From an uncultured Chloroflexota bacterium (GTDB lineage Bacteria > Chloroflexota > Anaerolineae > UBA4142 > SHND01), in contig CALMZO010000343.1 in assembly GCA_937870825.1 (NCBI GenBank), positions 1 through 37,032 of the forward strand: 37,032 nt of DNA, read 5' to 3'. The translations under genes and the position numbers were made by a program. This document shows, one piece after another, positions 7,387 to 29,191 of this stretch. The notes beneath the pieces were generated by a model. The model worked only from the letters and a program-made list of their open reading frames with translations. It did not search any database and was not told the origin of the DNA. Within the stretch, counting starts at the first letter, position 1; each line of letters begins with the position of its first letter.

Positions 7387-8251
7387 TCATTTCCCAAATC
7401 CCATCCCTCTGAAAAAATTCCGCGCCGCACGCACCACATTGCATCGTCGTACCCCTCACCTCTATTTTTTCTGCGCCGCATTGCACACAGCGCCACAGCT
7501 TTTCATTCAGCCGCGCGTCGCCGCGTTTCGCCGATTCAGTTAAATAAAAAATGCTCGGCGTGATTTCGAGATTCGAGATTGGAGATTGGAGAGCGGCGTC
7601 GAGAGAGCAAAGGAGCGCGGACGGGATGATGCGTTTCAATGCGCCCACGCGAAAAATGGAAACGCCGCGCGTCGCGCGAATTTCAAAATCAACGCGCTGC
7701 AAATGTTCGCGAATGTACGCGGGATGATAATCAAAATTCAATTTCACAAATTCGTACGGTTCGAGTGAATAGGGATTTATTCCGTTATTTTTGCCAAGAT
7801 GAAATTTCACCAATGCTTTCAAATGCCGCTTGTTGGCGAAATCGGTCACGTACGTTCCGTGCGGACGCACCGCGCGCGAGATTTCTGCAAACGCGTTCGG
7901 AATGTTGGCAACGTGATGGAGGACGCGCACGGTGAGCGCGGTATCGAGCGCGTTGTCTGCGAACGGCAAATTGTACAAGTCCGCCGCGACAAAAATAAAT
8001 CGCGCGTCATTCCCCAAACGTTCGCGCGCATCCTTTAACATCGAGCGCGCGTAATCCAACAAAATCACCTGCTCGTACCCGCGATACAAATCGGCAAGCC
8101 GCCCGAACCCCGCGCCGATTTCGACCAAACGTTTGCCGCGCGGCGGCAGCAGCGCGTTCAACGCGACGCGTTCCACCGCGTCTTCATATTCGCGTCCGCG
8201 CCAAAATTCCTCGCGCCAGCGCGAACCTTCGTAATCCATGATAGGCGTCAT
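7376..8251 (-). CDS. Class I SAM-dependent methyltransferase with C-terminal zinc ribbon
   Basis: A 291-aa protein if started at the ATG at 8251 (MTPIMDYEGSRW). The N-terminal Rossmann domain has motif I LVEIGAGFGR, the acidic end of strand 2 (LLDYA), motif AADLYNLPFADNALD and VLHHVANI, all typical of the Methyltransf_11 group. The last ~35 residues hold two CxxC pairs (CVQCG, CGACG), a Trm112-like or rubredoxin-like zinc ribbon that often closes such enzymes. The substrate is unknown. The frame stays open upstream to 8320, but those 23 codons are atypical and overlap the parS-like site and a repeat, so the later start is preferred. A 7-nt-period array (7567-7594) is translated within residues ~220-229, between the two domains. 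Confidence 0.85.
   Translation of the reverse strand: MTPIMDYEGSRWREEFWRGREYEDAVERVALNALLPPRGKRLVEIGAGFGRLADLYRGYEQVILLDYARSMLKDARERLGNDARFIFVAADLYNLPFADNALDTALTVRVLHHVANIPNAFAEISRAVRPHGTYVTDFANKRHLKALVKFHLGKNNGINPYSLEPYEFVKLNFDYHPAYIREHLQRVDFEIRATRGVSIFRVGALKRIIPSALLCSLDAALQSPISNLEITPSIFYLTESAKRGDARLNEKLWRCVQCGAEKIEVRGTTMQCGACGAEFFQRDGIWEMKRA
7567..7594. repeat. 7-nt-period array inside the methyltransferase gene
   Basis: Four consecutive heptamers, cgagatt twice, then ggagatt and ggagagc, occupy the linker between the methyltransferase fold and its zinc ribbon. The period is 7 nt, not a codon multiple, so the translation does not repeat. Confidence 0.75.
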
Positions 8252-8278
8252 AGAACTCTTGTTCCGAACATTTGTTGC

Positions 8279-8294
8279 AGTGTCACGTGAAACG
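8279..8294. promoter_or_regulatory. parS-like ParB-binding site
   Basis: The 16-mer agtgtcacgtgaaacg matches the bacterial parS consensus (TGTTTCACGTGAAACA) at 13 of 16 positions, with an intact TCACGTGAAAC core. It lies upstream of the methyltransferase and about 3 kb from parB, within the distance common for chromosomal parS sites. ParB binding is inferred. Confidence 0.6.
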
Positions 8295-8315
8295 TCCGGG
8301 CAGCGTTGAGTCGAA

Positions 8316-8380
8316 AGCATTGAGCATTGGGCAACGTGTATGGAATTTTACTCTATGCTCAATGCTCGTGACTCGCTACT
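8316..8380. repeat. 7-nt-period inverted-repeat element between VWA and methyltransferase genes
   Basis: Heptamers gcattga, gcattgg (8317-8330) and ctatgct, caatgct (8353-8366) form a perfect 12-bp inverted repeat (8316-8327 / 8355-8366). The VWA-gene stop codon (8376-8378) lies in its outer flank. Confidence 0.75.
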
Positions 8381-9269
8381 TTAAATTCTCCCGCACTCTG
8401 GCATACAACTCTTCCGCGCGCAATTGTTTCAGTGTGTACACATTCCCGCCCAATTTTTCTGCGAGCGTTGCGGCAAGTCCCCTGTCGAATGCTTCGTGTT
8501 CGGTGTTGATGACGACGGTGCGGATTTCCGATTTTTTGAACATGCCTGCGATGCGATGCGCTTCTTCTTGCGGCGGCAGGTCGGTCATCGAAACATTGCC
8601 CGCGCCGTCCGTCACACAAATCATCAACGGCATCACTTCGGGGTCGCGGATTTTTTCGCGGACGAGAATTTGATGCGCGAGAAGCAGTCCCGCGCTCAAA
8701 GGTGTTTTGCCCCCGACGGGAACGTCTTTTAATGCTTTTTGCGCGAGGTCAACGGAGGAGGTTGGCGGAAGCACGGTGCGCGCTTCTTCTTTTTGGAAAA
8801 CGACGAGTCCTACGCGGTCGCGTTTTTGATACGCGTCCACGAGCAGCGACATAATCGCGCCTTTGGTCGCTATCATCCGTTCGGCAGCAGCCATACTCCA
8901 AGACGCGTCGACGACGAACAGGATGCAGTTTGCCGCGCGGCGCACGCGCACTTTTTTTCGCAAATCTTGCTTTTCGACGGACAGCGCCATTTCGCTGCCT
9001 TGTTCTTTGCGTCGAAGTTGATGCGGCGCGGCGGTGCGAAACGTCGCGTCGAACGCGACATCGCTCACCTCGCCGCGCATTTCGCGCGCGCGAATATACC
9101 GTCCGCGTTTGCGTTCGGTGCGCGTGCGCGAGCGTTTGCCCGCAGTCTTGCGCGCCATTTTATCAATCGGGGTTTGAAATTTTCGGGGAGCAAACGCGTC
9201 GCCGATGGACACGGGGCGCTCGGCGGGACGGGGCGATTGTTTCGATGGGTCATGCCCCTGTCCTTGCAC
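8376..9269 (-). CDS. chlD: VWA domain of a ChlD/CobT-like chelatase subunit (frameshift-expressed)
   Basis: A 297-codon frame from GTG 9269, encoding the C-terminal half of a magnesium/cobalt-chelatase D-type subunit. Residues ~1-100 are a basic linker (RTRTERKRGRYIRAREMRGE), a hallmark of BchD/ChlD. The VWA domain follows, with MIDAS residues DASWS in LFVVDASWSM, a Thr in GGKTPLSAGL and an Asp in VTDGAGNVS. The frame is open far upstream of GTG 9269 without a stop, reaching the end of the chlI frame. A -1 shift at the A_AAA_AAG heptamer (9326-9332) would fuse both halves into a ~676-aa protein spanning 8376-10405, the usual size of the fused subunit. The GTG could be only the first available start codon. 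Its partner would be a CobN/ChlH-type subunit, not in this window. Confidence 0.85.
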   Translation of the reverse strand: MQGQGHDPSKQSPRPAERPVSIGDAFAPRKFQTPIDKMARKTAGKRSRTRTERKRGRYIRAREMRGEVSDVAFDATFRTAAPHQLRRKEQGSEMALSVEKQDLRKKVRVRRAANCILFVVDASWSMAAAERMIATKGAIMSLLVDAYQKRDRVGLVVFQKEEARTVLPPTSSVDLAQKALKDVPVGGKTPLSAGLLLAHQILVREKIRDPEVMPLMICVTDGAGNVSMTDLPPQEEAHRIAGMFKKSEIRTVVINTEHEAFDRGLAATLAEKLGGNVYTLKQLRAEELYARVRENLK

Positions 9270-9316
9270 CGATTGGTCGCTCGGCGACGGCGTATGTTCA
9301 GAGGACTCGTCAGCGG

Positions 9317-10405
9317 CTAGGGACGCTTTTTTTTTACTTCTTGTTTTTGGTCGCCTTTGGGTTGACCTTCGCTTTGCACGCCTTCCCGCGCGCGCTCGAG
9401 CTGTTTTTCCAATTGCTCGAATTTCACTTCGACATCCTGGAACGGTTTGCGTTTGAGGCGATGCGGGAGCGCGAGTTCGGCGGCGAGCAAAATATCGTGT
9501 TCGTTGATCGTCGTGCGTCCGGCGAACGCGGCATGGGCGCGCGCGGCTTTAAGAATCACGAGGTCGGCGCGGTGTCCGTCCACTTCGAGTCCCGAAGTCA
9601 ATTCTGCAATCGCGTAAATGTCCGCGTGCGAATGTTTCACGTCGGGCAATTTTTCGCGCGCGTGTTCAATTTCTTTGGACAATTTTTTCTCGGACGTTTG
9701 CCATTCGTCCACGAACGCGTTGGGGTCGCCTTCAAAGGAGAGACGGCGTTCGATAATTTCGACGCGCTGTTCCGCATCGGGAATGCCGCGAATGTCAACG
9801 GACAGACCAAAACGGTCCAAAAGTTGCGGACGCAGTTCGCCTTCTTCGGGATTCATCGTGCCGACGAGAACGAACTGCGCGGGATGTTGAAACGAGATGC
9901 CTTCGCGCTCGACATTGTTCACGCCCATCGCGGCGGAATCCAAAAGCAAGTCAACGACGTGGTCATCCAGCAAGTTTACTTCGTCCACGTACAAGATGCC
10001 GCGATTCGCGTTCGCCAAAACACCGGGCTCGAATTTTTTCTCGCCGCGTTTAATCGCGGTTTCAATGTCGAGTGTGCCAACCACGCGGTCTTCGGTCGCG
10101 CTGACAGGCAAATCCACGAGACGAACCTTGCGCCGCGCAATGGGCAGCACTTCGCCGCGCGCTTCGCGTTCCATGCACTCGTCGCACAAATGCGAATCGT
10201 GGGGATTGCAGCCGAAACGGCAATCGGCGACAACATCAATTTCGGGAAGCAGCGCGGCAAGCGCGCGCACGGCGGTAGATTTTGCCGTGCCGCGTTCGCC
10301 GCGAATCAAAACTCCACCAATGAGCGGATTGATCGCGTTGAGCACCAACGCGCGTTTCATGCGTTCTTGACTAACAATTGCGGTAAAAGGAAAAATTGCG
10401 GGCAT
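9317..10405 (-). CDS. chlI: AAA+ chelatase subunit I (zero-frame product of the chlI/chlD gene)
   Basis: A 362-aa MoxR/ChlI-type AAA+ ATPase. Walker A is GERGTAKS (residues 36-43), Walker B is LYVDEVN with D141-E142, and sensor motifs appear in [22 protein letters not shown]. Between strands 2 and 3 there is a four-Cys insertion (C62, C66, C74, C77), seen in the cobaltochelatase-like branch rather than in plant-type BchI. It would form the ATPase ring that, with the D subunit, drives Co or Mg insertion into a tetrapyrrole by a large CobN/ChlH subunit. It ends after a Gln/Lys-rich linker at a slippery A9 run. The start ATG at 10405 opens with the family-typical [15 protein letters not shown]. 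Metal specificity cannot be read from sequence. Confidence 0.9.
9326..9332 (-). promoter_or_regulatory. -1 programmed frameshift heptamer A_AAA_AAG
   Basis: On the minus strand the last codons of the chlI frame are GTA AAA AAA AAG CGT CCC TAG. The heptamer A_AAA_AAG is in register with the zero frame exactly as in dnaX. Slipping back one base enters an open frame (AAA GCG TCC CTA GCC) that continues into the VWA domain. The zero-frame stop follows after two codons. Confidence 0.75.
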
Positions 10406-10470
10406 CGAGTCACCTGAAGAAAAATAGTTTCACGTACCGTTCCAAAAAAAGATTATAGCACTGTCGTTAG

Positions 10471-10521
10471 GAAACAAGAAACAAGAAAACAGGGAAACAA
10501 ATTTTTTTTGTTTCCCTGTTT
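10471..10521 (-). terminator. Terminator hairpin within a 7-nt-period element
   Basis: Perfect 15-bp arms (10487-10501 / 10507-10521) around a T-rich 5-nt loop lie 11 bp past the lipoprotein stop. The outer flank carries heptamers gaaacaa, gaaacaa, gaaaaca (10471-10491). It can serve as a terminator, though a T-tract after the stem on the minus strand is only partial. Confidence 0.65.
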
Positions 10522-11137: not shown

Positions 11138-12073
11138 CTATCCGACCAACTTGTCGTAAATTGTTTCCAGCTCTTCGTCGGAATAAAACTCGATGATAAT
11201 TTTTCCGCCGCGCTGTGAGCGATAGAGTTCGACTTTTGTTCCCAACGCGCGGCGCAAGTCTTCTTCGATGGAATGGGTGTCGGGTGGAGACGAATGCCGA
11301 ACGACGGATGACGAATGACGCTTGCCGTTGGATGTTGGACTGTTCCCGTTTTTTGCGCCTTCGTCCTTTGTCTTTCGTCCTTCGTCCGATTGCAACGCAC
11401 GTCGCACCAGCTCCTCCGTCTGCCGCACCGCCAAATTTTCTGCAATCACTTTTTGCAAGAGCGCGTTCTGTTTTTTCGCGTCGGCGATTTGGGCGAGCGC
11501 GCGCGCGTGTCCCTCGCGAATCGTTTCGTTCAACACCGCGTCTTTGAGAGCGTCGGGCATTTTCAATAAACGCAGCGCGTTCGAAATCGTCGTCCGGTCT
11601 TTGCCGACTTTTTTGGCAACCTGCTCTTGCGTCAATTCAAATTCGTGAATGAGCTGCTGGTACGCTTCCGCCTCTTCTAACGCGTTCAATTCCGCGCGCT
11701 GGATATTTTCCACGAGCGCGAGTTCCAACATTTGCTGCGGCGTCGCGCCTTTGAGAATCGCGGGGACCGTGTTCATTCCCGCGCGCTGCGCCGCGCGCCA
11801 ACGCCGTTCGCCTGCGATGAGTTGATAGCGCGAACCGTACGGCGTTTGCATTTCTTTAACCACCAACGGTTGAATCAAACCGTGTTCTTTGAGTGACGCC
11901 GCGAGTTCATCCAACGCGTCGGTTGAAAATTTTTTGCGCGGCTGTTTCGGATTCGCTTCAATGTGTGTGATGGGAATTTGGCGCACAACATTCTGCAAAT
12001 TTTCGGAAACCGTTTTTTGTGGAATCAACGCGCCGAGTCCGCGTCCGAGTCCGTGTTTGGTGGCTGTGGTCAT
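11138..12073 (-). CDS. parB: Chromosome-partitioning protein ParB, with a repeat-derived linker
   Basis: A 311-aa ParB/Spo0J CTPase-clamp protein that loads at parS and spreads along DNA. The N-terminus GLGRGLGALIPQ, the CTP-binding GERRWRAAQRAG box and ALVENIQRAELN are all present. The helix-turn-helix region is LTQEQVAKKVGKDRTTISNALRLL. The C-terminal dimerisation domain is IEEDLRRALGTKVELYRSQRGGKIIIEFYSDEELETIYDKL (read in two blocks). Between HTH and C-domain, residues ~230-262 are hydrophilic and Ser/Lys/Gly-rich and are encoded by a 7-nt-period repeat array (11289-11386), an insertion within the normal flexible linker. The start codon overlaps the parA stop (ATGA), so the two are translationally coupled. 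It acts with ParA and probably with the parS-like site at 8279. Confidence 0.95.
   Translation of the reverse strand: MTTATKHGLGRGLGALIPQKTVSENLQNVVRQIPITHIEANPKQPRKKFSTDALDELAASLKEHGLIQPLVVKEMQTPYGSRYQLIAGERRWRAAQRAGMNTVPAILKGATPQQMLELALVENIQRAELNALEEAEAYQQLIHEFELTQEQVAKKVGKDRTTISNALRLLKMPDALKDAVLNETIREGHARALAQIADAKKQNALLQKVIAENLAVRQTEELVRRALQSDEGRKTKDEGAKNGNSPTSNGKRHSSSVVRHSSPPDTHSIEEDLRRALGTKVELYRSQRGGKIIIEFYSDEELETIYDKLVG
11289..11386. repeat. Intragenic 7-nt-period element in the parB linker
   Basis: Seven consecutive heptamers from 11289 (gacgaat, gccgaac, gacggat and relatives) reach 11337. A second block of four (cttcgtc, ctttgtc, tttcgtc, cttcgtc) spans 11359-11386 in the reverse sense. 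The insertion preserves the parB frame although its own period is not a multiple of three. Confidence 0.8.
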
Positions 12074-12936
12074 TGTGCCTCCGGCGTTACAGGTAGCAAG
12101 TAGGATGTAGCAGGTATCAGGGACGCTATGTTTTCACTATCCGTTGCTACTTGATACCTGCTACATCCTACCATCCGTGCTTCCCGCATCAAAAACTCGT
12201 TCGTCAATTTTTCGTACGCTTCCGCGCCGCGCGAGTGAATGTCGAATTTCACGAGCGGCTCGCCAAAACTTGGCGCTTCGGCAACGCGCACATTGCGCGG
12301 AATCCACGTTTCAAAAATTTCATTCGGAAAATGCGCGCGCACTTCTTGAATCACTTGCGTCCCCAATCGCGCGCGCGGGTCAAACATGGTCATCACCAGC
12401 CCGAACAATTCCAAACGCGGGTTCAAATTTTCGCGCACGAGCGAAATGGTTTGCATCAATTGCGCGAGTCCTTCGAGCGCGAGATATTCACACTGCACGG
12501 GAACGACGACGAAATCTGCCGCGCACAACGCGTTCACGGTGAGAATGCCGAGCGACGGCGGGCAATCAATCAAAATGTGGTCGAACTCGTCGCGCAACGT
12601 TGCCAGCGCGCCGCGCAAAATAAATTCGCGTTCGTGCGCGTTCGCCAATTCGATTTCCGCGCCTGCGAGCATCGGCGTCGAAGGAACGACGGTGAGTAAT
12701 TCCATCGCGCTCGGCGTCAAAACCTCGCGCAGTGTTGCTCCGCCGACAAACACATCATATACGGACGCGGGCAAGGTAAAACGGTCAATGCCCACACTCG
12801 CCGACGCGTTGCCCTGCGGGTCAAGGTCAATGAGCAGCACGCGGCGTCCCTGCCATGCCAGAAACGCGCCAATGTTGACTGCGGTCGTCGTTTTGCCGAC
12901 GCCGCCTTTTTGATTAGCAAACGCAAACGAGCGCAT
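12070..12936 (-). CDS. parA: Chromosome-partitioning ATPase ParA/Soj, with a repeat-derived C-terminal tail
   Basis: A 288-aa deviant-Walker ATPase. The P-loop is KGGVGKTTTAVNIG (residues 10-23), followed by LIDLDPQGNASAS and the Walker-B-like ILIDCPPSLGILTVNAL. The ATP-bound dimer binds DNA non-specifically and is cleared by ParB, moving replicated origins apart. Homologues end soon after the helix containing YEKLTNEFL. Here about 30 further residues (roughly 256-282 of 288) are encoded by a 20-bp-armed palindromic 7-nt-period element. The stop overlaps the parB start by 4 nt. The ATG at 12936 lies ~50 nt downstream of a good promoter (12993-13021). Function is secure; whether the extra tail is tolerated or useful is unknown. 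Confidence 0.95.
   Translation of the reverse strand: MRSFAFANQKGGVGKTTTAVNIGAFLAWQGRRVLLIDLDPQGNASASVGIDRFTLPASVYDVFVGGATLREVLTPSAMELLTVVPSTPMLAGAEIELANAHEREFILRGALATLRDEFDHILIDCPPSLGILTVNALCAADFVVVPVQCEYLALEGLAQLMQTISLVRENLNPRLELFGLVMTMFDPRARLGTQVIQEVRAHFPNEIFETWIPRNVRVAEAPSFGEPLVKFDIHSRGAEAYEKLTNEFLMREARMVGCSRYQVATDSENIASLIPATSYLLPVTPEAQ
12093..12172. repeat. 7-nt-period palindromic element at the parA 3' end
   Basis: Heptamers gtagcaa, gtaggat, gtagcag and gtatcag (12093-12120) face tgctact, tgatacc, tgctaca and tcctacc (12145-12172). Arms 12100-12119 and 12152-12171 are perfectly complementary over 20 bp, with a 32-nt loop. The element is translated as the tail of ParA. Confidence 0.88.
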
Positions 12937-12992: not shown

Positions 12993-13021
12993 ATTATACA
13001 CCGCCGCGCGCGGGCGCGCAA
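12993..13021 (-). promoter_or_regulatory. Promoter of parAB
   Basis: On the minus strand TTGCGC (13016-13021) and TATAAT (12993-12998) are spaced by exactly 17 nt, ~57 nt upstream of the parA ATG. Confidence 0.7.
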
Positions 13022-13026
13022 CATCC

Positions 13027-16000
13027 CTATCTATCTTTCCCCAACGCTCGTTCGTATTCGCGGCGCATTGCGCGGGCGGCGGGATTGTTTTCGAGAAATT
13101 CATGACGCACTGCGTCATCACGGATGCGCGCCGCGCGGAGAGTGAGGTCGTCCATGCCGCGCTGTAAAATTTCGCGCGCGCGTGCAGAGTCATGCGCCGC
13201 GAGGATTTGATAGCAGGTGAGAAAGACCGCGGTGGCGTCAGCGCTCTCGTCAAAATTTTGTGCGGGCAACGTGACGAGTTCGTGAACGCGTTGTTGTGCG
13301 AGTTCCGCGTCGCCTTGCAACAGCGCGACACGCGCAAGCCCGGCGCGAGCGTCGAGCGCGCGATGTCCCCGCTCGGCGCGCTGGAGGAATTCCACCGCGC
13401 TGGTGTAGGCTTGCTCGGCGTGTTCCAAGTCGCGGCGCGCAAGATACAAGTCACCTATGACGCACTGCGTCATGCCCTCGCGATAGGTCGAACCGACCTC
13501 GCGCGCGACGCGCGCCGCTTCGCGCGCATACGCGAATCCTTCTTCGATTGCGCCGCGATGGAGGGCAAGGACGGCGAGGTCACGCAGCGCGATGCTTTCA
13601 CCCGAACCGTTGCCCATTTCACGAAAGAGCCGGTGCGCTTCGCGATAGTACGGCGTCGCGCGCGAATAATTTCCGAGTTCGTAATAAATCGAGCCGAGAA
13701 TCACATTTGCCGCCGCCTGGTCAAAACGTTTGCCGATTTGGGTCGAGAGCGCGAGCGCGTCTTGCGCATAACGCAGCGCGTCATCAAAAATGGTGTTGTC
13801 AACGCCGATGTCGGCGAGGTTGACGAGCGCGGAGGATTCGCCGTAGCGATTGTGGTCCACGCGGTACAATTCCAACGCACGTTCATAAAACGCGCGCGCG
13901 TTCTCGATGTCACTCGCGCTTTGTTCGATGAGACCCGCAACATATTGGGTATCGGCTTCCAGTGCAGTCTCGTGATGCGCGCGCGCCCACTCGAACGTTT
14001 CGCGCAAAACTGCGCGCCCTTGCTCCAATTTCCCCGTCCAGTAGCAGACCCACCCCACGCGCAATTGCGCGCGGGCGTACAGCAAATCGCCGGGTGTCAG
14101 CGCTTGCATCAGCGCGTCCAAAGCGAGCAGCGCCTCGTCATAACGCGCCAGCCGTTCCAGAAAGGTTGCGCGGGCAAGCTGCAAATGTAGAACGAGTTCG
14201 GGTGAGCGGGCTGCGACTCGTTCTGCGTGCGTCAGCGCATTTTCTGCGAGTGCGAGTCCTTCGCGAAACAGACCGGTCAAATAATAGAACGTGGTGACGC
14301 CTTCGACAATGTTTGAGTCTAATAATTCAAACCACTCATTTTCGACAGCGTTTTGCCATGCTACACGCAAATTATCGAGTTCACGCCATATTTCTGTTAA
14401 AATGGTTTTTGGCTCGCTATTTTGTAATTTTGCACCGCGTTGTGCTGAAAAATGCAAATAATACGCAGAATAGTCTTTTTGTACATTATTCAGCCTGTCA
14501 AATTTTTCCGACGAAAAATAGCGTAATAATTCATGAATTTCATATCTGCCCTGTTCTGTACGTTTCAAGAGCGATTTATCTATTAAAATATCTAAATCTC
14601 TTTGTTGTGCCTTGATTATCACTTCTGCTGCGTTATGGTCGAAACCGCCGCGAAAGATGCTCGTCTGCGCCAAGACCTGCTGTTCGCGTGGTCTTAGCAA
14701 GTCCCATGAACCTTGCCACACCGCGCGCAAGCTGGAATGTCGCGCGGGGACATCCCGTTGTGTGGTAGCAAGCAAATCCAGGTTCTCGTCGAGCGCGGCA
14801 AGAATTTCTTTCAGCGTGCGCGTACGCGTCCATGCGGCGGCAAGTTCGATGGCAAGCGGCAAGCCCTCGACGCGGCGGCAAATCGCGCTGACTGCGGTGA
14901 GCGATTCGGGCGTCACGGTGAATTGTCCTGCCGCCCGCGCGGCGCGTTCCACAAAGAGCTGGACCCCTTCGCTCGCGCGCAAAGTCACCTCGTCGTCTTG
15001 AGGCGGCACACTCAAACCGTCCAGACGGAAAATGGATTCGGCGCGCACATTCAACGCTTCGCGCGAGGTCACGAGAATGGTACTTTGCGGCGCGCTCGCC
15101 ACGAGTTCGACAAGCCACACCGCGCTCGGCATCAATTGTTCGAGATTGTCCAAAATCAAGAGCAATTCTTTGCTCCGCAGGAAGGTTTGTAATTGACGCG
15201 CGGGTGTTACCGAACCGCTAAAGGTGATGCCAAGGACGTCCGCGACGGCGGTGGCAATCGAGTCGTTCAGGTTCGAGAGATTGCCATCAATCCCTGCCAA
15301 TGGAACAAAAAACGCGCCGTCTTGAAAATCGTGCTGGACGCGTTCCGCTGCCGCGAGCGCGAGCCGTGTTTTGCCCATGCCGCCCGGTGCGACGATGGTG
15401 TGCAGTCGCTGCGTGGGGTCAAGCAGGCGCGCGGTGAGGATTTCGATTTCGCGCGCGCGTCCAATCAAGGGTGTGAGTGGAGACTTGAGACCGGAGACTT
15501 GGGTTTGAGGCGGGGTGAACGTTCCACTGCGGATACTTGCGTACAGGGCGCGCGTTTCGCGTTCCGGTTCGGCGTCAAAGTGTTCCGCGAGAATATTTTT
15601 GCACTGTTCGTACTGCCCGAACGCGGCGGCGCGTTGGCTTTGCGCAACGAACGCTTGCATGAGCGCGCGATGCGCGGACTCGCGCCACGGTTCCAATTCG
15701 AGCAGACGGCGCGCGTGCGTAATCAGTGCGTCCCATTCGCGGCGATGCAGAAAAAACGCGACGAGTTGTTCCAACGCGTCAAGCGCCTGTTGATGCAAGC
15801 GTTCGCGTGTAATGACTGCCCATTCCTCGAACAGGTCACTGCCCGAATGCGTAAAGCCCGCGAGAAATTCGCCGCGATAGATTCCCGCCGCGTGTTCCAA
15901 TTCTTGCGCACACCGCGCGCACGTTTCCGCGCGGCGATGTTTGTGTTGGCGCGTTCGTTCGACGCGCGCGCGAAACTCTTGAACGTCGAGCGTGTGCGGA

Positions 16001-21896: not shown

Positions 21897-21989
21897 ACAC
21901 TATCGGAATCATTCCGAGAGAACAAGTCGCCCGCGCGCGTTTATCACACCCAAATGGTCAACGGGCGCGACGACAAAGGAGAACAACTC

Positions 21990-22541
21990 ATGTTGACCGA
22001 TTTACAAACCCGCAAACTCACGCGCGCGTTCCACCTCGCGGACATGAATCACGATGGCGTGTTGGAAAAAAGTGATTATGAACAATACGCCGCGCAGATG
22101 GCGCACGCGTTCGATGTCGCCGCCGATTCCGCTGCGTACCAAATGCTCAATCAAAAAATTTTGGGCGATTGGGAAATGTCGCGGCGTATGTTGTCGCGCG
22201 ACGACGACAAAATCACACTGCAAGAATTTCTTGCGCTTCACGACGGCGTCATCCATTCGCCAATGTTCGATGCGTTCGTCGCGGGCTATGTGGACAGTAC
22301 GTTGTCAATGTGGCGCGTGATTGACCCCGATGGTCCCGCGAATGCGGCAAATCCATTTCGCTTTGCGCGTTTTCTCAAAACGTTCGGCGTGAGTCAAGCC
22401 GACGCGGATGAAGCATTTCGCCATCTCGATAAAAACGGCAACGGCATCATGGAACGCGCAGAGATGATTGCGGCACAAAAAGAATTTTTCGCGTCCAACG
22501 ACCCGAACGCGGCGGGCAATTGGCTTTTGGGTGCGTATTAA
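21990..22541 (+). CDS. EF-hand calcium-binding protein
   Basis: A 183-aa calmodulin-like protein started at ATG 21990 (Shine-Dalgarno aaaggag). The first canonical 12-residue loop is D18-D29 (DMNHDGVLEKSD), and the last is DKNGNGIMERAE at about 141-152. A middle, partly degenerate loop is SRDDDKITLQEF (~69-80). The arrangement resembles bacterial calerythrin/CaSP-type four-hand proteins, with the third hand (DPDGPANAANPF) weakened. Such proteins buffer or sense cytoplasmic Ca2+. There is no signal peptide. The frame appears open further upstream only because it runs through the MITE and the propeller gene. The gene has its own terminator at 22552-22596. Family assignment is firm; partner unknown. 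Confidence 0.93.
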   Translation: MLTDLQTRKLTRAFHLADMNHDGVLEKSDYEQYAAQMAHAFDVAADSAAYQMLNQKILGDWEMSRRMLSRDDDKITLQEFLALHDGVIHSPMFDAFVAGYVDSTLSMWRVIDPDGPANAANPFRFARFLKTFGVSQADADEAFRHLDKNGNGIMERAEMIAAQKEFFASNDPNAAGNWLLGAY

Positions 22542-22551
22542 ATCAGACGGT

Positions 22552-22596
22552 AAAAAAAAGAACCGCGCATCGGAAATGCCGCGCGGTTTCTTTTTT
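22552..22596. terminator. Bidirectional terminator after the EF-hand gene
   Basis: Stem arms aaccgcgc (22561-22568) and gcgcggtt (22581-22588) are flanked by eight A upstream and six T downstream, so the hairpin works for both this gene and the convergent minus-strand lipoprotein at 22618. Confidence 0.88.
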
Positions 22597-22617
22597 ATGG
22601 GACAGGTATAAAGCCAT

Positions 22618-23610
22618 TCAGAATGTCGGAGGCGTCGCAGTTTTGGCGGGCTCGGACAAACCGGGAATGACAAATGGGTTGGGCAAGGGAATCGCGTCTT
22701 TTGGTGCTTGGAGCGGCACAATGATATTCATGTCATTGACGCGAACGGTAAAACCGATGGCGGCAATTTGGTTCGGCGCTTCGGGCGCGCGCATTTGAAT
22801 GCCCATTTCCATTTTGTGAACGTATCCATCTTCGCAGACCCATATGTGCAAAACTCCGCGTTCGAGGTTGCCTTGTCCCGTGCCGAGGTTGCGTTTGATG
22901 CTGCCGCCCTCGTTGAGACTTTGGAAAAATTGTGCCGCCTCGCGTTCGTCGGCTGAATACTTGACGCAAGATTTATTGTCCAACGATTCCGCTCCGTTTG
23001 CGCGCATCGCCGGAAGTCCATTTCCCGCGCCTGAAAGGTCTTTGAGAAATTCGTTTGGAGTCGAGTCCGCCAAATCGCGGCTCGCGGATTTCGGCGCGTA
23101 ATACCAACGGTTTTCGCGCGCGCCAAACATTGGCAGTGGTCCATGCAAATACATTCGTTGACCAATCGTCAAAAATTCCACTTGGTCGTCCGGATTCCCG
23201 GAAAGAAACATCACAATAAATCCTTTTATCTTCCACGAGGAATCTTCAAAATTCTGTCTGCCCTCCATACTCAAGACTGTAACGGAATCTCCCGCCGTCA
23301 CACCCGGAAATGATTTTGTCAAACTGCCCGACGGGTCGTTCACAATGATATCTATCGTAGCGTGAAACACGCGCACATCGCGCGTGCGTTCGAACGCTTT
23401 CAACACTTGAAGCGTCGCGGGGTCCGGCGTATGCGTCGGCGGACGCGGCGTGCCGGTGGGCGGCAGCGGTGTTGTTTCCGGCGTCCACGTCGCGGGATAA
23501 ACAATCGCGGTGGGGGAGGGAGGCGGGTCTGTTGGTGTGCGCGGCGGACGCGCGCACGCGCTGTTCAAACCAAGCACAAGCACGAACGCAAGCAAAAATA
23601 TCTTGTTCAT
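22618..23610 (-). CDS. LppX/LolA-like lipoprotein, function unknown
   Basis: A 330-aa lipoprotein. The signal ends LNSAC with C19 as the acylated residue, followed by a Pro/Thr-rich stalk (~20-65) of the kind seen in several other proteins here. The remaining ~260 residues have the curved-beta-sheet character of LolA/LppX/LprG-type lipid-binding lipoproteins: VLKAFERTRDVRVFHATIDI, GRQNFEDSSWKIKGFIVM, QRMYLHGPLPMFGARENRWYY. The assignment rests on overall pattern, not on a catalytic motif. It would act outside the membrane. The gene is separated from pfkB (upstream in its direction) by 51 bp, so the two may be co-transcribed. Confidence 0.75.
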   Translation of the reverse strand: MNKIFLLAFVLVLGLNSACARPPRTPTDPPPSPTAIVYPATWTPETTPLPPTGTPRPPTHTPDPATLQVLKAFERTRDVRVFHATIDIIVNDPSGSLTKSFPGVTAGDSVTVLSMEGRQNFEDSSWKIKGFIVMFLSGNPDDQVEFLTIGQRMYLHGPLPMFGARENRWYYAPKSASRDLADSTPNEFLKDLSGAGNGLPAMRANGAESLDNKSCVKYSADEREAAQFFQSLNEGGSIKRNLGTGQGNLERGVLHIWVCEDGYVHKMEMGIQMRAPEAPNQIAAIGFTVRVNDMNIIVPLQAPKDAIPLPNPFVIPGLSEPAKTATPPTF

Positions 23611-23661
23611 CGCGCGTTATTCTAAAAAGATTCTCGGTGTGTGGAATTGAAAGATTGGAAT

Positions 23662-24498
23662 TTAGGCGGCGTTGACAAGTTCTTGGACTTGGCCGCGCGT
23701 GGGCATCGTCGCGGCGCCGTAACTCGCAATCGCAAGCGCGGCAGTCGCATTTGCGAAACGCGCGGCTTGGAGCACATCCTTCGTTTCGTACAAACCAATG
23801 AGAAAACCTGCCGCAAAGCTATCCCCCGCGCCCGTCGGGTCAATGACGCGTACGGCAAAGGAGCGAACGTCGAGCGGGCGTTCGCCTTTGCGATAGATGG
23901 TGACACCTTCGCTGTCGCGTGTGAGCGCGACAAGCGGCGCGAGCGCGATGTACGAAGACAAACGTTCGGTGTAGGTTCCCAAATCTTCTTCGCTCAAAAT
24001 CAACGCGTCCACGTGCGGCAAAATGTCGGGGGCTTGCAGCCACGCGCGCGGTTTTACGCGGCCTGTTTCATCCCACTGGCGCATCCATCCTTGGGGCGAA
24101 ACGGCGACCAGCGTTTCTTTGGAAAACGCGTGCACGATGTCTGCGTCCAATTCGTCGGCGACAGGACCGAGCAAAACCATTTTGGGCGCGCACCATTCCG
24201 GCGGAATATCGTTCGCGGAAATGCGCGCGGCGACATCGCGGACGAATTGACGACGCTTGCCTTGGATATAGGTATTTTGAAATGTAGTTGTGGTATCGGA
24301 CGCGAGGCGCACGATTTCAATGTCGTGCAGTAATTCGCCTTGGGGAAAATGTTCTGCCGCGCGGGTGAGGATGCCCACGCGATAACCGAGATTGCGCGCG
24401 GCGATGGAGGCAAACGTCGCCGCACCGCCCAACGTGAACGAGCCATCGGGCTGCTCATCGCGCGTGATGTGACCGACGACGAGAAAATTGGGTGTCAA
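23662..24498 (-). CDS. PfkB/ribokinase-family sugar or nucleoside kinase
   Basis: A 278-aa cytoplasmic kinase. The C-terminal PfkB signature DPTGAGDSFAAGFLIGL holds the catalytic Asp in GAGD and the anion hole. The N-terminal GGAATFASIAARNLGYRVGILT is the substrate-side glycine motif. The middle has LILSEEDLGTY and LTRDSEGVTIY. It phosphorylates a hydroxymethyl group of a sugar or nucleoside with ATP; the substrate cannot be read. The best in-frame start is TTG at 24498, adjacent to a 7-nt-period element (24501-24585). No Shine-Dalgarno site is visible, so that element may have displaced the original 5' region. It follows jag in the same direction. Confidence 0.9.
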   Translation of the reverse strand: MTPNFLVVGHITRDEQPDGSFTLGGAATFASIAARNLGYRVGILTRAAEHFPQGELLHDIEIVRLASDTTTTFQNTYIQGKRRQFVRDVAARISANDIPPEWCAPKMVLLGPVADELDADIVHAFSKETLVAVSPQGWMRQWDETGRVKPRAWLQAPDILPHVDALILSEEDLGTYTERLSSYIALAPLVALTRDSEGVTIYRKGERPLDVRSFAVRVIDPTGAGDSFAAGFLIGLYETKDVLQAARFANATAALAIASYGAATMPTRGQVQELVNAA

Positions 24499-24500
24499 TC

Positions 24501-24585
24501 AAAAGCCAAAAGCGAAAAGTTAAAAGCTAAAAGTTGCGACGCTGCGTCCTCACTTTTAGCTTTTAACTTTTTACTTTTTACTTTG
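24501..24585. repeat. 7-nt-period palindromic element between jag and pfkB
   Basis: Heptamers aaaagcc, aaaagcg, aaaagtt, aaaagct (from 24501) face cttttag, cttttaa, cttttta (from 24553). Arms 24515-24534 and 24552-24571 are complementary over 20 bp without mismatch, with a 17-nt loop. The last codon and stop of jag lie inside it. Confidence 0.88.
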
Positions 24586-25300
24586 GTAATATCATCACGC
24601 GCCGACGTTCGCCCTCGCCGATAGATTGGGTTTTGACGGTGGGGTGTTCTTTCAGGGTCACGTGGACGATGCGGCGTTCGTTCGGGGGCATGGCTTCGAG
24701 CGTAATTGGCTGACGACTTTGTTTGACGCGGTCTGCCATGCGTTTCGCCAATTCGCGCAAGACGCGTTCACGGCGGGAGCGATAGCCCTCTACGTCCACC
24801 GAGAAGCGTTCGTTGCTGCGCGTCTTGCTCGCGACAATCAAACGCGCGATATATTCCAAATCGCGCAACGTTTCGCCGCGGCGCCCGATGAGGATGCCCA
24901 AATCCGCTCCCACAATGTCCAACACGAACGCGGGTCCGTCTTCGGTCTCGAGGTCGGTGTGAATCACCACCTGCGAACGGATGCCCATACCGCGCAGCAA
25001 CGTTTCCAAAACCTGTTTTGCCACAGATTGAACATCTTGCGGTTCGGCGGGCGTTTCGAGAATCGCTGTCCGCGCGCCCGGCATGGCAGCTGCGGTGCTG
25101 AGAAGCGGCGCAGCAGTTTCGTAAATCGGTTCGAGGTCTTGGCGCAAAGTCAATTGGACGAGGACCGGACGTTCGGGGTCATCGCTCACGCTGTTCAAGA
25201 GTTCGACTTCAACTTGGTCGCGCGTCGCGACGAGTTCGGCAAGTCCGGTCTGAATCGCATCTTCGACGGTGCGCCCGGCAGATTTAACGCTTTTTTCCAC
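24578..25300 (-). CDS. jag: RNA-binding protein Jag/KhpB
   Basis: A 240-aa protein with three domains in the usual order: Jag-N (MEKSVKSAGRTVEDAIQTGL, 1-50), a KH domain with the GRRGETL loop (residues ~132-150, LGILIGRRGETL), and an R3H domain near the end (MPPNERRIVHVTLKEHP). KhpB/Jag binds many RNAs with KhpA and affects cell elongation and division in Firmicutes; it is normally encoded next to yidC, as here. GTG 25300 is the start and lies inside the end of yidC, giving a 17-bp overlap and probable translational coupling. The stop codon lies in a 7-nt-period element. Confidence 0.94.
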   Translation of the reverse strand: MEKSVKSAGRTVEDAIQTGLAELVATRDQVEVELLNSVSDDPERPVLVQLTLRQDLEPIYETAAPLLSTAAAMPGARTAILETPAEPQDVQSVAKQVLETLLRGMGIRSQVVIHTDLETEDGPAFVLDIVGADLGILIGRRGETLRDLEYIARLIVASKTRSNERFSVDVEGYRSRRERVLRELAKRMADRVKQSRQPITLEAMPPNERRIVHVTLKEHPTVKTQSIGEGERRRVMILPK

Positions 25301-26288: not shown

Positions 26289-27437
26289 CTATTGCGAACA
26301 GGCTTGTGCGCTCAATTGGTCGAAACACCAGCGGCGGGAACCGTCTGCCGCATTCAACGCATACATATTATATCCGTTTTGTCCGTTATAGCCGCTTGTC
26401 GGAACATAGAGTGTTCCGTTCTGCAAAACAGGCGTCGCGAGAATCGGTGCGCCGACAGATTCGTTTTTCCATTTCAACTGTGCGTTGTCCAAATTGAGGG
26501 CGTACACTTTGTGGTCGCTCGCGCCAAAATATCCGACGCCATCTTGAATCACAATCGCCGAGCGAATTTGCCCGCCGGCGGTAAAGGGCTGCGCCCATTT
26601 CGCGCTGCCCGTGTTGGCATCCAGCGCGTACACTTTGCCGGAGGTTGTGCCAAAGTACAACGTGCTGTTGTGCGCGGTCGGCGTCGCCCAAATCCATTCA
26701 TTCGGCTCGAGTGCAAATTCCCATTTCTTGCTGCTGCTGCCGGCATCGAGCGCGTAAAATTTATTCAACGCGCCAAAGTACACCGTGTTGTTCAAAACGA
26801 GTGGTTTCGCCGTAATCATGCCGCCGGCGTTAAAATTCCACTTTTGAATTCCGGTTGCTGCATCCAGCGCGTACAAATTGTGGTCGAGTGAACCGAAATA
26901 GACCGTGCCATTGTCGAACGCCGCGTCGCCCCACACTTTTTGCTGTGTAGCAAATTCCCATTTCTTGACGCCCGTTTCGGCATCGAGCGCGTAAAATTTA
27001 TTGTTGTTTGCGCCGAAATACACGGTGCCTTGTTCGACGAGCGGTGTCGGCACAATCGGCGCGCCGTCGTTGAATTGCCACTTGAGGCCACCCGACGCCG
27101 CGTCGAGCGCGTAAAAAATTCCGTCGTACGCGCCAAAGTACACTTTGCCGTTCACTGCGACAGGCGTACCATACACCGCAATCAAGGGTTTGTCGGTTTC
27201 ACCGTCATATTCCCATTTCTTGGTTCCCGTTGCCGCGTCCAGGGCGTACACTTTCGGAAGGGTGGAACCAAAGTAGAGGGAACCGTTATCGAACGTCGCC
27301 GAAGACCAACCCTGCGCGGGTGCGGAACCGCACGCGACCAATGCGAGGATAGAAAAAATCCCGAGTACGAAAATGATAAATGCTTTGATACGAAAACTCC
27401 GTCCGGCAGATAGCGAATGGCATATCGCGAATCGCAA
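26289..27437 (-). CDS. PQQ-like beta-propeller lipoprotein (BamB-like)
   Basis: A protein of up to 382 aa with a signal ending LALVAC (Cys near residue 36), then about eight repeats of YFGxxxxKxYALDAATGxxKWxF, the Trp-docking motif of PQQ-type propellers such as BamB. It would form an eight-bladed wheel on the outer face of the membrane. No quinone-binding or catalytic residues are evident, so a scaffold role is more likely. It sits between yidC and yidD inside the conserved rpmH cluster, an unusual position. The reading frame begins at TTG 27437, inside a 7-nt-period palindrome. No ATG or GTG lies between there and the signal core, so the true start is uncertain. Confidence 0.85.
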   Translation of the reverse strand: MRFAICHSLSAGRSFRIKAFIIFVLGIFSILALVACGSAPAQGWSSATFDNGSLYFGSTLPKVYALDAATGTKKWEYDGETDKPLIAVYGTPVAVNGKVYFGAYDGIFYALDAASGGLKWQFNDGAPIVPTPLVEQGTVYFGANNNKFYALDAETGVKKWEFATQQKVWGDAAFDNGTVYFGSLDHNLYALDAATGIQKWNFNAGGMITAKPLVLNNTVYFGALNKFYALDAGSSSKKWEFALEPNEWIWATPTAHNSTLYFGTTSGKVYALDANTGSAKWAQPFTAGGQIRSAIVIQDGVGYFGASDHKVYALNLDNAQLKWKNESVGAPILATPVLQNGTLYVPTSGYNGQNGYNMYALNAADGSRRWCFDQLSAQACSQ

Positions 27438-27478
27438 TCACAGTTCGACGATTCGCGATATGAGATACGCGAATTATT
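27409..27478. repeat. 7-nt-period palindromic element between yidD and the PQQ lipoprotein
   Basis: Units such as gatagcg, aatggca, tatcgcg, aatcgca repeat from 27409; attcgcg, atatgag, atacgcg repeat from 27451. Arms 27421-27434 and 27449-27462 are perfectly complementary over 14 bp, with a 14-nt loop. The yidD stop at 27474 lies at its edge. Confidence 0.82.
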
Positions 27479-28217: not shown

Positions 28218-28318
28218 CTTGATTGCTCCTCAAAATGGGCAATGAAATGGCTGCCCCTTACGATTTCAAATTTGCAAAAAAATCGCGCGGCATACTTGCA
28301 CCACGCGGGCAAGTCGGA

Positions 28319-28346
28319 ATTATACACGCGCGCGATAGAATTACAA
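28319..28346 (-). promoter_or_regulatory. Promoter of rpmH
   Basis: On the minus strand TTGTAA (28341-28346) and TATAAT (28319-28324) are separated by 16 nt, ~100 nt upstream of the rpmH start. The -35 touches a 7-nt-period array. Confidence 0.55.
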
Positions 28347-28394
28347 AATTGCGGTTACCAGATGGTAAATTGCGAATCGCGTATCGTAAAGTAC
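28346..28394. repeat. 7-nt-period array upstream of rpmH
   Basis: Seven consecutive heptamers begin with aaattgc and include a second aaattgc three units later, then gaatcgc and gtatcgt. A small palindrome (ttacca / tggtaa) is embedded. The array abuts the MITE-like element at 28397. Confidence 0.75.
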
Positions 28395-28396
28395 CC

Positions 28397-28501
28397 TAGT
28401 GCAGCATTAAACAAGTTCTTGGGAGTCGCGCACAATGAAATCGTTTAGAAAGCGTCTTTCAACGCATCGGTACGCAAAACAAGTTGGTGAATGATGCACT
28501 A
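28397..28501 (-). mobile_element. MITE-like element, copy 2 (105 bp)
   Basis: Terminal repeats TAGTGCA and TGCACTA bracket a 105-bp sequence almost identical, in inverted orientation, to 21793-21896. It lies between the rpmH promoter region and the Nth-family gene, ending 4 bp before that gene's stop. No transposase is present in the window. Confidence 0.82.
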
Positions 28502-28505
28502 GCAC

Positions 28506-29189
28506 CTAATCTCCGACCCCTCTCTTGGCGCACATTCGATTGAGCGGACATTTCCCGCAGCTCGGCGCACGTTTCGTACACGTGTCTTTCGCGTGCAAAA
28601 CCAAGAGGGCGTGAAATTCGTTGAACAGCGCGACATTGTGCGGCAAATGCTCCATGAACAGTTGCTGCAATTCCGCGTACGGAACCGTTTCGTCCACCCA
28701 GCCCATCCGATAAAAAATGCGGCGTGTGTACGCGTCCACCACAAAAATCGGCTGCTCGGCGGCATAGAGCAAAATCGCGTCCGCCGTTTCGGGACCGATG
28801 CCGTTCAATGCCAACAATTGCGCGCGCTGGGTTGCCAAATCACCGCCGCGCATCGTTTCCACCACATCGCCGTATTCGCGTCCCAAAAATTCCGCGAGCG
28901 TTTTCAAACGTTTCGGCTTGCGCGTGGTGAATCCCGCCGAACGAATCAACTCGGTCAGTACTGGGATTTCGATTTCGCGCAGGCGTGACGGCTCCAAACA
29001 CTTTGCGCGTTTCAGGTTCGCGAGCGCCTTTTCGACATTCGTCCACGACGTATTCTGCGTCAAAATCGCGCCGACCATAATCTCCCATTTCGATTCGTGG
29101 GGCCACCAATTGGGCGCGCCATACTGCGCGCGTAATGTTTCAAACACGCGCAACAGCTGTTTCTTGACGTTTGACGCTTGACGCTTCAC
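28506..29189 (-). CDS. Nth-family DNA glycosylase lacking the catalytic Lys
   Basis: A 227-aa HhH-GPD base-excision glycosylase. The helix-hairpin-helix is LLALNGIGPETADAILLYA, the catalytic Asp is in FVVDAYTRRIFYRMG, and the C-terminal [4Fe-4S] ligands follow the C-x6-C-x2-C-x5-C pattern (CTKRAPSCGKCPLNRMC). Endonuclease III has Lys in the position occupied here by Glu (GIGPETAD), so this should be a monofunctional glycosylase without AP-lyase activity, like MagIII. Substrates might be alkylated purines, an inference. The N-terminal codons from GTG 29189 are encoded by a 7-nt-period array, so the true start may lie a few codons downstream. It is divergent from the sixA operon. Confidence 0.9.
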   Translation of the reverse strand: MKRQASNVKKQLLRVFETLRAQYGAPNWWPHESKWEIMVGAILTQNTSWTNVEKALANLKRAKCLEPSRLREIEIPVLTELIRSAGFTTRKPKRLKTLAEFLGREYGDVVETMRGGDLATQRAQLLALNGIGPETADAILLYAAEQPIFVVDAYTRRIFYRMGWVDETVPYAELQQLFMEHLPHNVALFNEFHALLVLHAKDTCTKRAPSCGKCPLNRMCAKRGVGD

Positions 29190-29191
29190 GT
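29164..29191. repeat. 7-nt-period array at the 5' end of the glycosylase gene
   Basis: Four consecutive heptamers (ttgacgt, ttgacgc twice, ttcacgt) occupy the first ten codons of the minus-strand glycosylase. No inverted partner arm is seen. Confidence 0.7.

Follow-up and report, generated by a model that had tools for sequence, protein, structure and literature searches.

Why do short arrays of seven-nucleotide units, some of them folded into inverted pairs, recur in an uncultured Chloroflexota genome, and what keeps their units alike? Heptamer repeats are a long-standing observation in bacterial genomes, and the reason for a unit of seven is without an agreed explanation. We analyzed a stretch of 37,032 nucleotides of one contig (CALMZO010000343.1; hereafter the window), in which a reading made without database searches (the sequence-only reading) had singled out nine such loci. 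The explanation we favor, and judge on balance probable from sequence comparison, is that these are dispersed gene-boundary hairpin elements of several co-existing families, which turn over rapidly while sequence-specific recognition of the heptad core keeps the elements in place.

A seven-nucleotide period in the window and across the genome

Across the window, nine runs at period 7 reach 16 or more of 21 matches, against 0.2 in third-order Markov shuffles; the other periods from 2 to 15 yield at most three, at period 14, the double of 7. The nine runs fall in six of the nine loci (7567, 10471, 11289, 12093, 24501, and 29164). When total lag-7 identity, with 7-nt margins, was compared locus by locus with 1000 base-shuffled copies, all nine loci exceeded the shuffles, which upholds the strict period first read from the sequence. 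The observed identity was reached by 0/1000 shuffles at seven loci, including locus 2 (38/72) and locus 7 (35/77), by 7/1000 at 10471, and by 12/1000 at 28346. At 10471-10521 lags 4 and 8 stand slightly above lag 7 because the stretch is A-rich, and the signal at 28346-28394 is weak (22/56), with clear heptads in the corresponding G001 stretch.

The period is also present beyond the window. A sample of 457 kb of the 7.23-Mb genome, consisting of the window and up to 20 kb from the start of each of 40 contigs chosen by their number, holds 47 period-7 runs (at least 17 of 21 matches) compared with 0.0 in shuffles; the genome-wide scan that the sequence-only reading had called for thus finds its peak, and the sample supports a real class of heptamer-period palindromic elements, spread genome-wide and comprising several words. 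Array density is 13.3 per 100 kb in this sample and 3.6 per 100 kb in the class, while a Trichormus plasmid stretch has 2 arrays in 50 kb, too few for comparison. Rfam families gave no match within the window at gathering score. Stop codons in all frames were dropped as a cause of the period since GACGAAC/G/A arrays contain none on that strand, and CsrA-type GGA motifs occur in only some words.

The nine loci and their genomic setting

Table 1. Heptad arrays of the window, with position and neighboring coding sequence.
Locus	Array	Position	Setting
1	four GATTSGA-type heptads	7561..7599	within ORF 7376-8320(-)
2	GAGCATT palindrome	8308..8374	start of ORF 7376-8320(-), before ORF 8376-9269(-)
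3	GAAACAA/GAAACAG array	10469..10521	between ORFs ending/starting at 10405 and 10532
4	two inverted GACGAAN arrays	11289..11388	in ParB linker coding sequence, ORF 11138-12073(-)
5	GTAGCAN palindrome	12093..12172	3' tail of ParA-like ORF 12070-12936(-)
6	AAAAGYN palindrome, 5 + 5 heptads	24497..24588	between ORFs 24578-25300(-, jag-like) and 23662-24498(-)
7	GCGAATN palindrome	27405..27478	upstream of PQQ-repeat-like gene, reaches next gene
8	weak or decayed heptads, GCGTATC/GCGAATC type	28346..28394	upstream of rpmH-like gene
9	four TTGACGN heptads	29158..29195	5' end of endonuclease III-like ORF 28506-29189(-)

Five loci had been credited with perfect arms of 12-20 bp, and their longest perfect inverted stretches agree: 12 nt at locus 2 (8316), 15 at locus 3 (10471; 5-nt loop), 20 at locus 5 (12093; 32-nt loop), 20 at locus 6 (24501), and 14 at locus 7 (27409). 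Over longer spans the arms of three of these five are imperfect (78%, 83%, and 86%), with 27-nt arms, 78% complementary, around a 13-nt loop at locus 2 and 22-nt arms, 86% complementary, at locus 7, whose array is also reported by TRF. No perfect inverted stretch of at least 8 nt was found at 7567, 11289, 28346, or 29164. At locus 4 (11289-11386) a single word forms two inverted arrays, supported by runs and by TRF, and no perfect stem is present; the arrays of locus 1 (20/21 lag-7 matches; TRF period 7, 4.0 copies) and locus 9 (18/21) have no inverted partner.

The sequence-only reading had also asked whether relatives hold non-periodic DNA of the same length at these sites with no sign of insertion. 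At locus 1 they do: the array is shared with G005, and G001 and G002 have gap-free, non-periodic coding sequence. This equal length is unlike an inserted element, is not explained by an insertion model, and is a point against core recognition. At locus 7 the site is empty in G001 and filled in G002 by non-heptad DNA of similar length, with short stretches in G005 and G003. Taken with the genome-wide peak, the two checks named by the sequence-only reading give a mixed answer. The locus 9 array was not seen in four aligned relatives, and the GAAACAG palindrome of locus 3 recurs in the G001 stretch and is absent from those of G005, G002, and L062, where the alignment is poor.

A crude longest-ORF rule assigns 33 of the 61 array loci to gaps, 22 to the interior of predicted ORFs, and six to contig edges. 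Placement at gene ends and in linkers, as originally proposed, is supported (33/61 in gaps; the ParB linker is an example), and the 22 loci within predicted ORFs count against core recognition. Inverted scores of at least 12 occur at 21/61 array loci and 6/183 controls, so that on this measure a strong stem is missing from the majority of array loci. Transcription terminators were rejected as an identity for the elements: the gap loci comprise 25 between co-directional, four between convergent, and four between divergent genes, hence no enrichment at convergent gene ends.

Dispersed families of near full-length copies

Among 78 arrays in the genome sample, the recurring words are of GACGAAN type (17), AAACGTC (10), CAGTAAT (7), and AAAAGTT (7). 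Whole-genome blastn with one element from each of three families found at least 29, at least 37, and at least 28 distinct places matching over most of the element, by hand count among the best 40 of 51, 214, and 85 candidates, respectively. Words had been thought specific to their loci; each of the three queried genome-wide, that of locus 6 among them, is instead a dispersed family. Dispersed copies are near full-length, roughly 55-90 bp, with two convergent arms and a short loop, and 53 parsed elements have 3-6 heptads per arm, mostly 4-5. The 60 stretches of dispersed copies include many both-strand duplicates and four (L197, L201, L232, L244) that are off-center and without an element.

Replication slippage at a favored 7-nt step, as in long simple sequence repeats, with chance fold-back producing the inverted arms, is improbable in our judgment. 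Many bacterial genomes have an excess of heptanucleotides, and slippage has been put forward (PMC4692102, citing earlier work), and locus 6 carries an expanded AAAAGTT array in G003; slippage nevertheless does not explain why one word recurs at dozens of loci that are unlinked, and accounts for neither the convergent layout, the length of 4-5 heptads, nor the position-specific constraint.

The dispersal of near full-length copies would suit miniature mobile elements of REPIN or MITE kind, that is, hairpins spread by a transposase acting in trans and now decayed, and Y1_Tnp matches occur in 24 of the 30 genomes searched, the own genome among them. Against this origin, which we consider unlikely, the best non-self matches among those listed for four queries reach 84-87% over most of the element, none being near-identical, and the same ceiling holds for the query element that has a different word in the sister genome. 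Copies in two families are star-like, with pairwise identities as for independent columns, and the own genome has only two Y1_Tnp matches. An association with RAYT (Y1) genes was looked for around 30 Y1 loci and not found: their 88.7 kb contain five arrays (5.6 per 100 kb, a density below the 13.3 of the own sample and above the 3.6 of the class), with none at L254, one of the two own Y1 matches.

Arms are no better matched than family members

The sequence-only reading held that the arms of each element are kept matched through hairpin-templated (quasi-palindrome) copying, and several perfect arms of 15-25 nt built of unlike units speak for it. From 30 fetched loci per family we kept 20, 18, and 15 elements after removal of both-strand duplicates and unparsed loci, requiring at least three units per arm (two for CAGT) and, in the first two families, a left arm before the right, and compared own with swapped arms, a result that depends on unit parsing. 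Own arms agreed at 0.880 vs. 0.874 for swapped arms in GACGAAN (1414/5000 permutations reaching the own value), 0.847 vs. 0.851 in AAAAGNN (3188/5000), and 0.816 vs. 0.820 in CAGTNNT (3115/5000). On local scores, own arms if anything fall below swapped ones: 13.5 vs. 14.8 in GACGAAN, with 4949/5000 permutations reaching the own value, and 4434 and 4471 of 5000 in the other two families. A score of 20 was reached about equally often by swapped and own arms, and no compensatory changes between arms, a REPIN/RAYT trait, appeared in these tests of three families. Arms in the three families thus show no matching beyond the family consensus. In the pair L193/L307 the left arm is identical between species and the right arm altered. 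Hairpin-templated copying is accordingly very improbable as the general rule.

The matched-arm pattern stands at locus 5 alone. At this parA/parB junction GTAGGAT-GTAGCAG-GTATCA is exactly common to both arms in the window, and the arms of L059, L061, and L063, which have the same word, are less well matched by reading of the alignment (L060 has a related word, L062 none). The arms of locus 5 may have changed together, which is a further point against core recognition.

A conserved core and freer positions

Agreement among GACGAAN units is 0.44 at position 7 and 0.74-0.98 elsewhere, although core agreement here and in the star-likeness test is inflated by the parsing, which accepted units on their match to the core (at least 4/5 or at least 5/6). 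In three other word classes (GACGTTT, GAGCATT, and GATTGGA) no single position stands out.

Orthologous copies were compared for 12 elements of two families between the sister species G000 and G005. Eight core positions diverge by 0-9%, three intermediate positions by 21-33%, and free positions by 30-58%. In AAAAGNN, positions 2-5 mismatch at 24/322 and position 7 at 33/78; in GACGAAN, positions 1, 2, 3, and 6 mismatch at 5/96 and position 7 at 14/24. The intermediate positions, AAAAG position 1 (17/80) and GACGAA positions 4-5 (8/24 each), make the core fuzzy. Loops mismatch at 86/131 (66%, gaps counted) and flanks at 323/1614 (20%), and fourfold sites in four genes differ at 186/539, a count that leaves out gene 9317-10405 (2/129 sites; apparent antisense frame) and becomes 188/668 with it. 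Twelve of 13 aligned pairs were used; L231/L330, a word switch, was excluded, and for L210/L311 the anchor was moved by hand by 90 nt. Finding such a pair requires that each copy still resemble its family, which favors overall conservation and not core over free position. In each heptad about 4-6 nt form a conserved core (GACGAA, AAAAG, CAGT), the remaining one to three positions being freer, and in two families the core evolves more slowly than the free positions between orthologous copies. Decay of former mobile elements would not by itself spare a core. The contrast turns the old puzzle into a testable question: what reads nucleic acid in seven-base steps?

Words change while sites persist

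At junction L231/L330, with matching flanks, the GACGAAN element of this genome is replaced by AAAAG in the sister. The locus 4 site has TCAAACG/CCCCGTC in L059 and GTCACCC in L060, with no clear array in L061 or L062; locus 6 has the same word in G005, G003, and G002, GATGAAG in G001, and a non-heptad palindrome in G004. Counts of GACGAAN x3 across the genus genomes, the own included, are 145, 0, 0, 0, 34, and 29. Sites persist, then, while words change, and since families look interchangeable at a site, its benefit or tolerance is presumably independent of the word. Word switching at fixed gene boundaries in this way separates site function from site sequence. The whole-word replacement at L231/L330, and the site of locus 7, which is occupied in the window and vacant in G001, would also be expected of mobile elements.

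Uptake sequences are thought to spread by molecular drive, and short words could similarly accumulate via biased recombination, pair at gene ends, and diverge into species dialects. The turnover of dialects within the genus, the star-like copies, and the paired, convergent arrangement at gene boundaries are consistent with this; uptake sequences are not known to come as several words in one genome, to form tandem arrays of 4-5 units, or to be phased in heptads, and we give molecular drive hardly any probability.

Under recognition of the core, which we favor, an element comprises two convergent arms, mostly of 4-5 heptads, around a short loop, and the core would be kept because a putative reader recognizes heptads in 7-nt steps, the free position being a base that this reader leaves untouched. 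The convergent layout of copies suggests recognition on a fold-back of DNA or RNA; candidate readers are a protein that binds DNA or RNA, or else a nuclease or transposase whose substrate is the single strand or the hairpin. The abundance of a family may follow that of whatever reads or spreads it, which would produce species-specific dialects. In its fullest form, which is speculative and rather doubtful, a reader stepping by seven (about six bases read, one skipped) on fold-back arms would exist in several co-existing specificities, with drift rewriting words at the same sites into the dialects of related species, in Chloroflexota and perhaps Bacteroidota and Patescibacteria.

Comparison with known heptamer repeats

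The sequence-only reading knew of no described class with this shape, but close precedents are found in Xanthomonas (PMC4692102) and Geobacter metallireducens (PMC2700814). Among the papers found, judged by title and abstract opening and including few subscription papers, none appeared to deal with heptads in Chloroflexota.

Xanthomonas GGGAATC repeats are degenerate heptads, (GGGANTN)n, with position-specific conservation and mostly four units, forming convergent pairs in 70 cases among 186 repeat patterns in Xcc, and 89% are intergenic, near the end of the 5' gene (PMC4692102). Degenerate heptads, position-specific conservation, convergent pairs, and gene-boundary placement are common to both systems, with a lower intergenic share here (33/61 loci in gaps). 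The Xanthomonas repeat is one G-rich word, studied for G-quadruplexes, whereas the present words are many and few are G-rich: no quadruplex-capable G-rich word was found among the main ones (GACGAAN, AAACGTC, CAGTAAT, AAAAGTT), some minor words being G-rich. A further difference is that arm independence and core constraint between species are measured here.

In G. metallireducens, multicopy families of four or five tandem heptanucleotides (GGACCGG; MTYCTGA) have 49 and 16 copies, with one class drawn as a fold-back, and were proposed to be RNA elements or regulator-binding sites (PMC2700814). Several multicopy families per genome, the unit number, and the fold-back are shared with our elements; arm matching, orthologous constraint, and word switching, tested here, are not treated in the accessible part of that work.

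Other systems are more distant. TAACTGA repeats of Beggiatoaceae, Cyanobacteria, and Bacteroidetes are dispersed intergenic heptamers, patchy across phyla, for which a binding-protein model was proposed (PMC4679880); they resemble the present elements in being dispersed, intergenic, and heptameric, and differ in being nearly all direct (169 direct-repeat sets and one inverted case in the main genome) and mostly just upstream of start codons. Calothrix STRRs comprise three different tandem heptanucleotides in one genome (as cited in PMC4692102), likewise several words per genome, with no palindromic layout described for Calothrix in that source. REPINs and REPs are intergenic inverted doublets that form hairpins in many copies, with GTAG-tagged REPs reported in several phyla including Chloroflexi, and for REPINs both a link to RAYT transposases and compensatory changes are described (PMC3116915, PMC3733652); neither that link nor such changes were found here, and the consulted parts of those papers mention no heptads for REPs. 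The elements described here thus share with the Xanthomonas and Geobacter kinds strict 7-nt tandem degenerate units, dispersed multicopy families, and convergent inverted pairs, and what they add is the many-word set, the measurement of core and free bases, and the switching of words at fixed sites.

Heptad Families and Persisting Sites

In a self-similarity scan of the 37,032-base window across each lag, period 7 stands alone, with 9 runs where Markov-3 shuffles give 0.2. All nine loci named as periodic in the sequence-only reading are enriched in lag-7 identity, weakly at locus 8, and measurement of perfect stretches confirmed inverted arms of 12-20 nt at five of them. The genome-wide peak over shuffled DNA that had been proposed as a check is likewise present in the 7.23-Mb assembly, where a 457-kb sample gave 47 period-7 runs (runner-up periods: 14, 19 runs; 8, 10 runs; 21, 8 runs) and a smaller sample of 236 kb gave 25, with 0.0 expected. 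The 457 kb hold 61 merged array loci, of which 25 lie between co-directional, 4 between convergent and 4 between divergent genes, 22 within predicted ORFs and 6 at contig edges; by extrapolation, the whole genome may hold roughly 1000.

The words were previously read as locus-specific, but both an array census of the 457 kb and whole-genome blastn show them recurring as dispersed families. The 78 arrays of the census fall into a small set of recurring words, including the GACGAAN type (17), AAACGTC (10), CAGTAAT (7), AAAAGTT (7) and the GATGAGG type (6), with 11 word classes met once. With 40 candidates scored per blastn query and distinct places counted by hand from the listings, the window's AAAAG element gave at least 54 matches (at least 29 distinct places over most of the element), one GACGAAN element at least 69 (at least 37) and one CAGT element at least 70 (at least 28); many matches fall on both strands because the elements are palindromic. 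Similarly, GACGAAN x3 occurs 145 times (68 + 77) in this genome, overlapping places within longer arrays being counted separately, versus once for the reversed control. The inspected copies that show the element have a common layout of left heptad arm, loop and right arm with the same word inverted, and by eye often occupy the whole gap from the end of one gene to the start of the next. The 53 parsed elements have 3-6 units per arm (mostly 4 in GACGAAN, 4-5 in AAAAG and CAGT) and loops of at most 18 nt, and CAGT arms touch or overlap in 11 of 15 elements.

Words also switch at fixed sites. The jag junction carries an AAAAG word in the window, the sister species G005 and two other genomes (G003, G002), and GATGAAG in G001, while the ParB linker carries GACGAAN in the window, TCAAACG/CCCCGTC in L059 and GTCACCC in L060; the closest ParB proteins among named loci are from Chloroflexota/Anaerolineae MAGs (L059, 89% identity; L060-L063, 74-76%). 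At L231/L330, GACGAAN is fully exchanged for AAAAG in the sister species, with aligning flanks. The heptad-free palindrome found at the jag junction of G004 implies that this site seems to accept hairpins generally. By eye, an odd unit, GGCGGAA or GGCAGAA, stands in an arm of the GATGAAG elements of G001, G008 and G009, which suggests an element shared across genera.

Features of the window and of related genomes
Position	Feature	Observation
Window 7355-7386	16-bp perfect palindrome, no loop, without heptads	Between two convergent ORFs
Window 7561-7599	Locus 1, four-unit array in coding region	Gap-free, without length change, against non-periodic coding DNA of G001 and G002
Window 13021-23682	About 10.7 kb between parA-like ORF and jag/yidC/rpmH-like cluster	About 1.2 kb in G001, hence insertion or rearrangement
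Window 13027-16326	1099-aa ORF	Within 13021-23682
Window 19690-19866	72-nt tandem repeat, 2.1-2.5 copies	Threonine/proline-rich coding stretch
Window 27405-27478	Locus 7	
Window 28268-28353	Non-coding block upstream of rpmH-like gene	About 83-88% identity in four sister genomes; more conserved than most neighbouring genes
Window 28346-28394	Locus 8	
Window 29158-29195	Locus 9	Array not seen in the four aligned relatives
L160:11455-11530 (G001)	GATGAAG element	
L164:7816-7900 (G008)	GATGAAG element	
L169:9871-9941 (G009)	GATGAAG element	
L162:11461-11546 (G004)	Long palindrome without heptads	Jag junction

Arm Matching and Core Constraint

Templated copying, earlier invoked to explain how arms stay matched, predicts that an element's own arms should beat arms from other copies. 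They do not: own versus swapped match is 0.880 versus 0.874 in GACGAAN (20 elements; 1414 of 5000 permutations reach the own value), 0.847 versus 0.851 in AAAAGNN (18; 3188) and 0.816 versus 0.820 in CAGTNNT (15; 3115), and in these three families matching does not go beyond the consensus. The longest local match is lower for own than for swapped arms throughout (L218-L247, L188-L217, L336-L365; by family, the own value is equalled or surpassed in 4949, 4434 and 4471 of 5000 permutations), a hint that long perfect stems are selected against. Of the swapped pairs, 9%, 41% and 13% reach a local score of 20, compared with 5%, 39% and 13% of own pairs; the shared core yields perfect arms often enough. 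Between species, the L193/L307 pair has a changed right arm and loop and an unchanged left arm. At the parA/parB junction, the window's arms have three units exactly in common and those of L059, L061 and L063 are by eye less well matched, so that a coordinated arm event, counter to arm independence, is possible there.

In sampled arrays, where agreement is inflated because units were recognised by their likeness to the word, GACGAAN position 7 is near random (commonest base 0.44) and positions 1-3 and 6 agree at 0.89-0.98; the last base is also loose in AAAAGTN, GTTGGAN and GTAGCAN, and no single loose position was seen in GACGTTT, GAGCATT and GATTGGA. Thirteen junctions at which both this genome and the sister species have an element were identified by flank matching and alignment; 12 of them keep the same family. 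Across these 12, mismatches at positions 1-7 are 17/80, 3/80, 7/81, 7/80, 7/81, 24/79 and 33/78 in AAAAGNN and 1/24, 0/24, 2/24, 8/24, 8/24, 2/24 and 14/24 in GACGAAN, compared with 86/131 in loops (gaps included), 323/1614 in flanking DNA and 186/539 at fourfold-degenerate sites of four genes. Core positions thus change at about one-fifth of the rate of fourfold sites and the last position at least as fast as fourfold sites, and in both families this pattern indicates ongoing sequence constraint in heptad register. Absolute rates are biased low, since pairs were found because both copies are still family-like; the contrast between heptad positions is free of that bias.

We infer that a putative factor recognises the heptad core in seven-base steps, probably on a fold-back of DNA or RNA, since the copies inspected have a convergent layout. 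The main rival, enzyme-driven mobility of the elements, could co-exist with core recognition. Locus 7 is filled in the window and empty in G001. None of four blastn queries found near-identical copies, the best non-self identity over most of the element being 84-87% among the matches listed (up to 97% for shorter, single-arm matches), and these queries thus show no sign of recent faithful copying; in two families, pairwise identities of copies are those of independent columns, i.e., star-like. A Y1/RAYT link as mobility enzyme was tested and is unsupported.

Distribution and Known Relatives

Strong inverted partners (inverted score 12 or more) accompany a minority of array loci, yet are enriched over controls in every group examined: 21/61 versus 6/183 in this genome, 6/13 versus 1/39 in the genus, 13/28 versus 5/84 in the order, 6/14 versus 0/42 in the class and 9/32 versus 2/96 in other phyla, where 8 of 43 stretches have any array (for example Falkowbacteria L096, Chitinophaga L125 and L129). 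GACGAAN x3 counts are 145 (this genome), 0, 0, 0, 34 and 29 across the genus and 0 to 185 per genome in the rest of the order; the pattern is present in 13 of 40 genomes and in 9 of 400 in an even phylum sample, this genome included in both. Four stretches of IMG/VR viral contigs (L393-L396) carry the GACGAAN pattern followed by TTCGTC.

Related repeats have been described elsewhere. Xanthomonas GGGAATC repeats are arrays, mostly of four units, whose (GGGANTN)n units are heterogeneous, with 70 convergent pairs among 186 patterns and 89% intergenic (PMC4692102). In Geobacter metallireducens, 49 elements comprise four heptanucleotides each, and a second class, depicted as a fold-back, counts 16 sites, 15 of them with five heptanucleotides (PMC2700814). 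TAACTGA repeats range over Beggiatoaceae, Cyanobacteria and Bacteroidetes (PMC4679880). REP super-families with a GTAG or CGTC tag are reported from several phyla, GTAG also from Chloroflexi, but unlike the present elements they are described, in the relevant passages of that source, with no mention of heptads (PMC3733652). To these systems the present analysis adds the many-word set, the orthologous measurement of core and free positions, the test that swaps arms between copies, and the switching of words at fixed sites.
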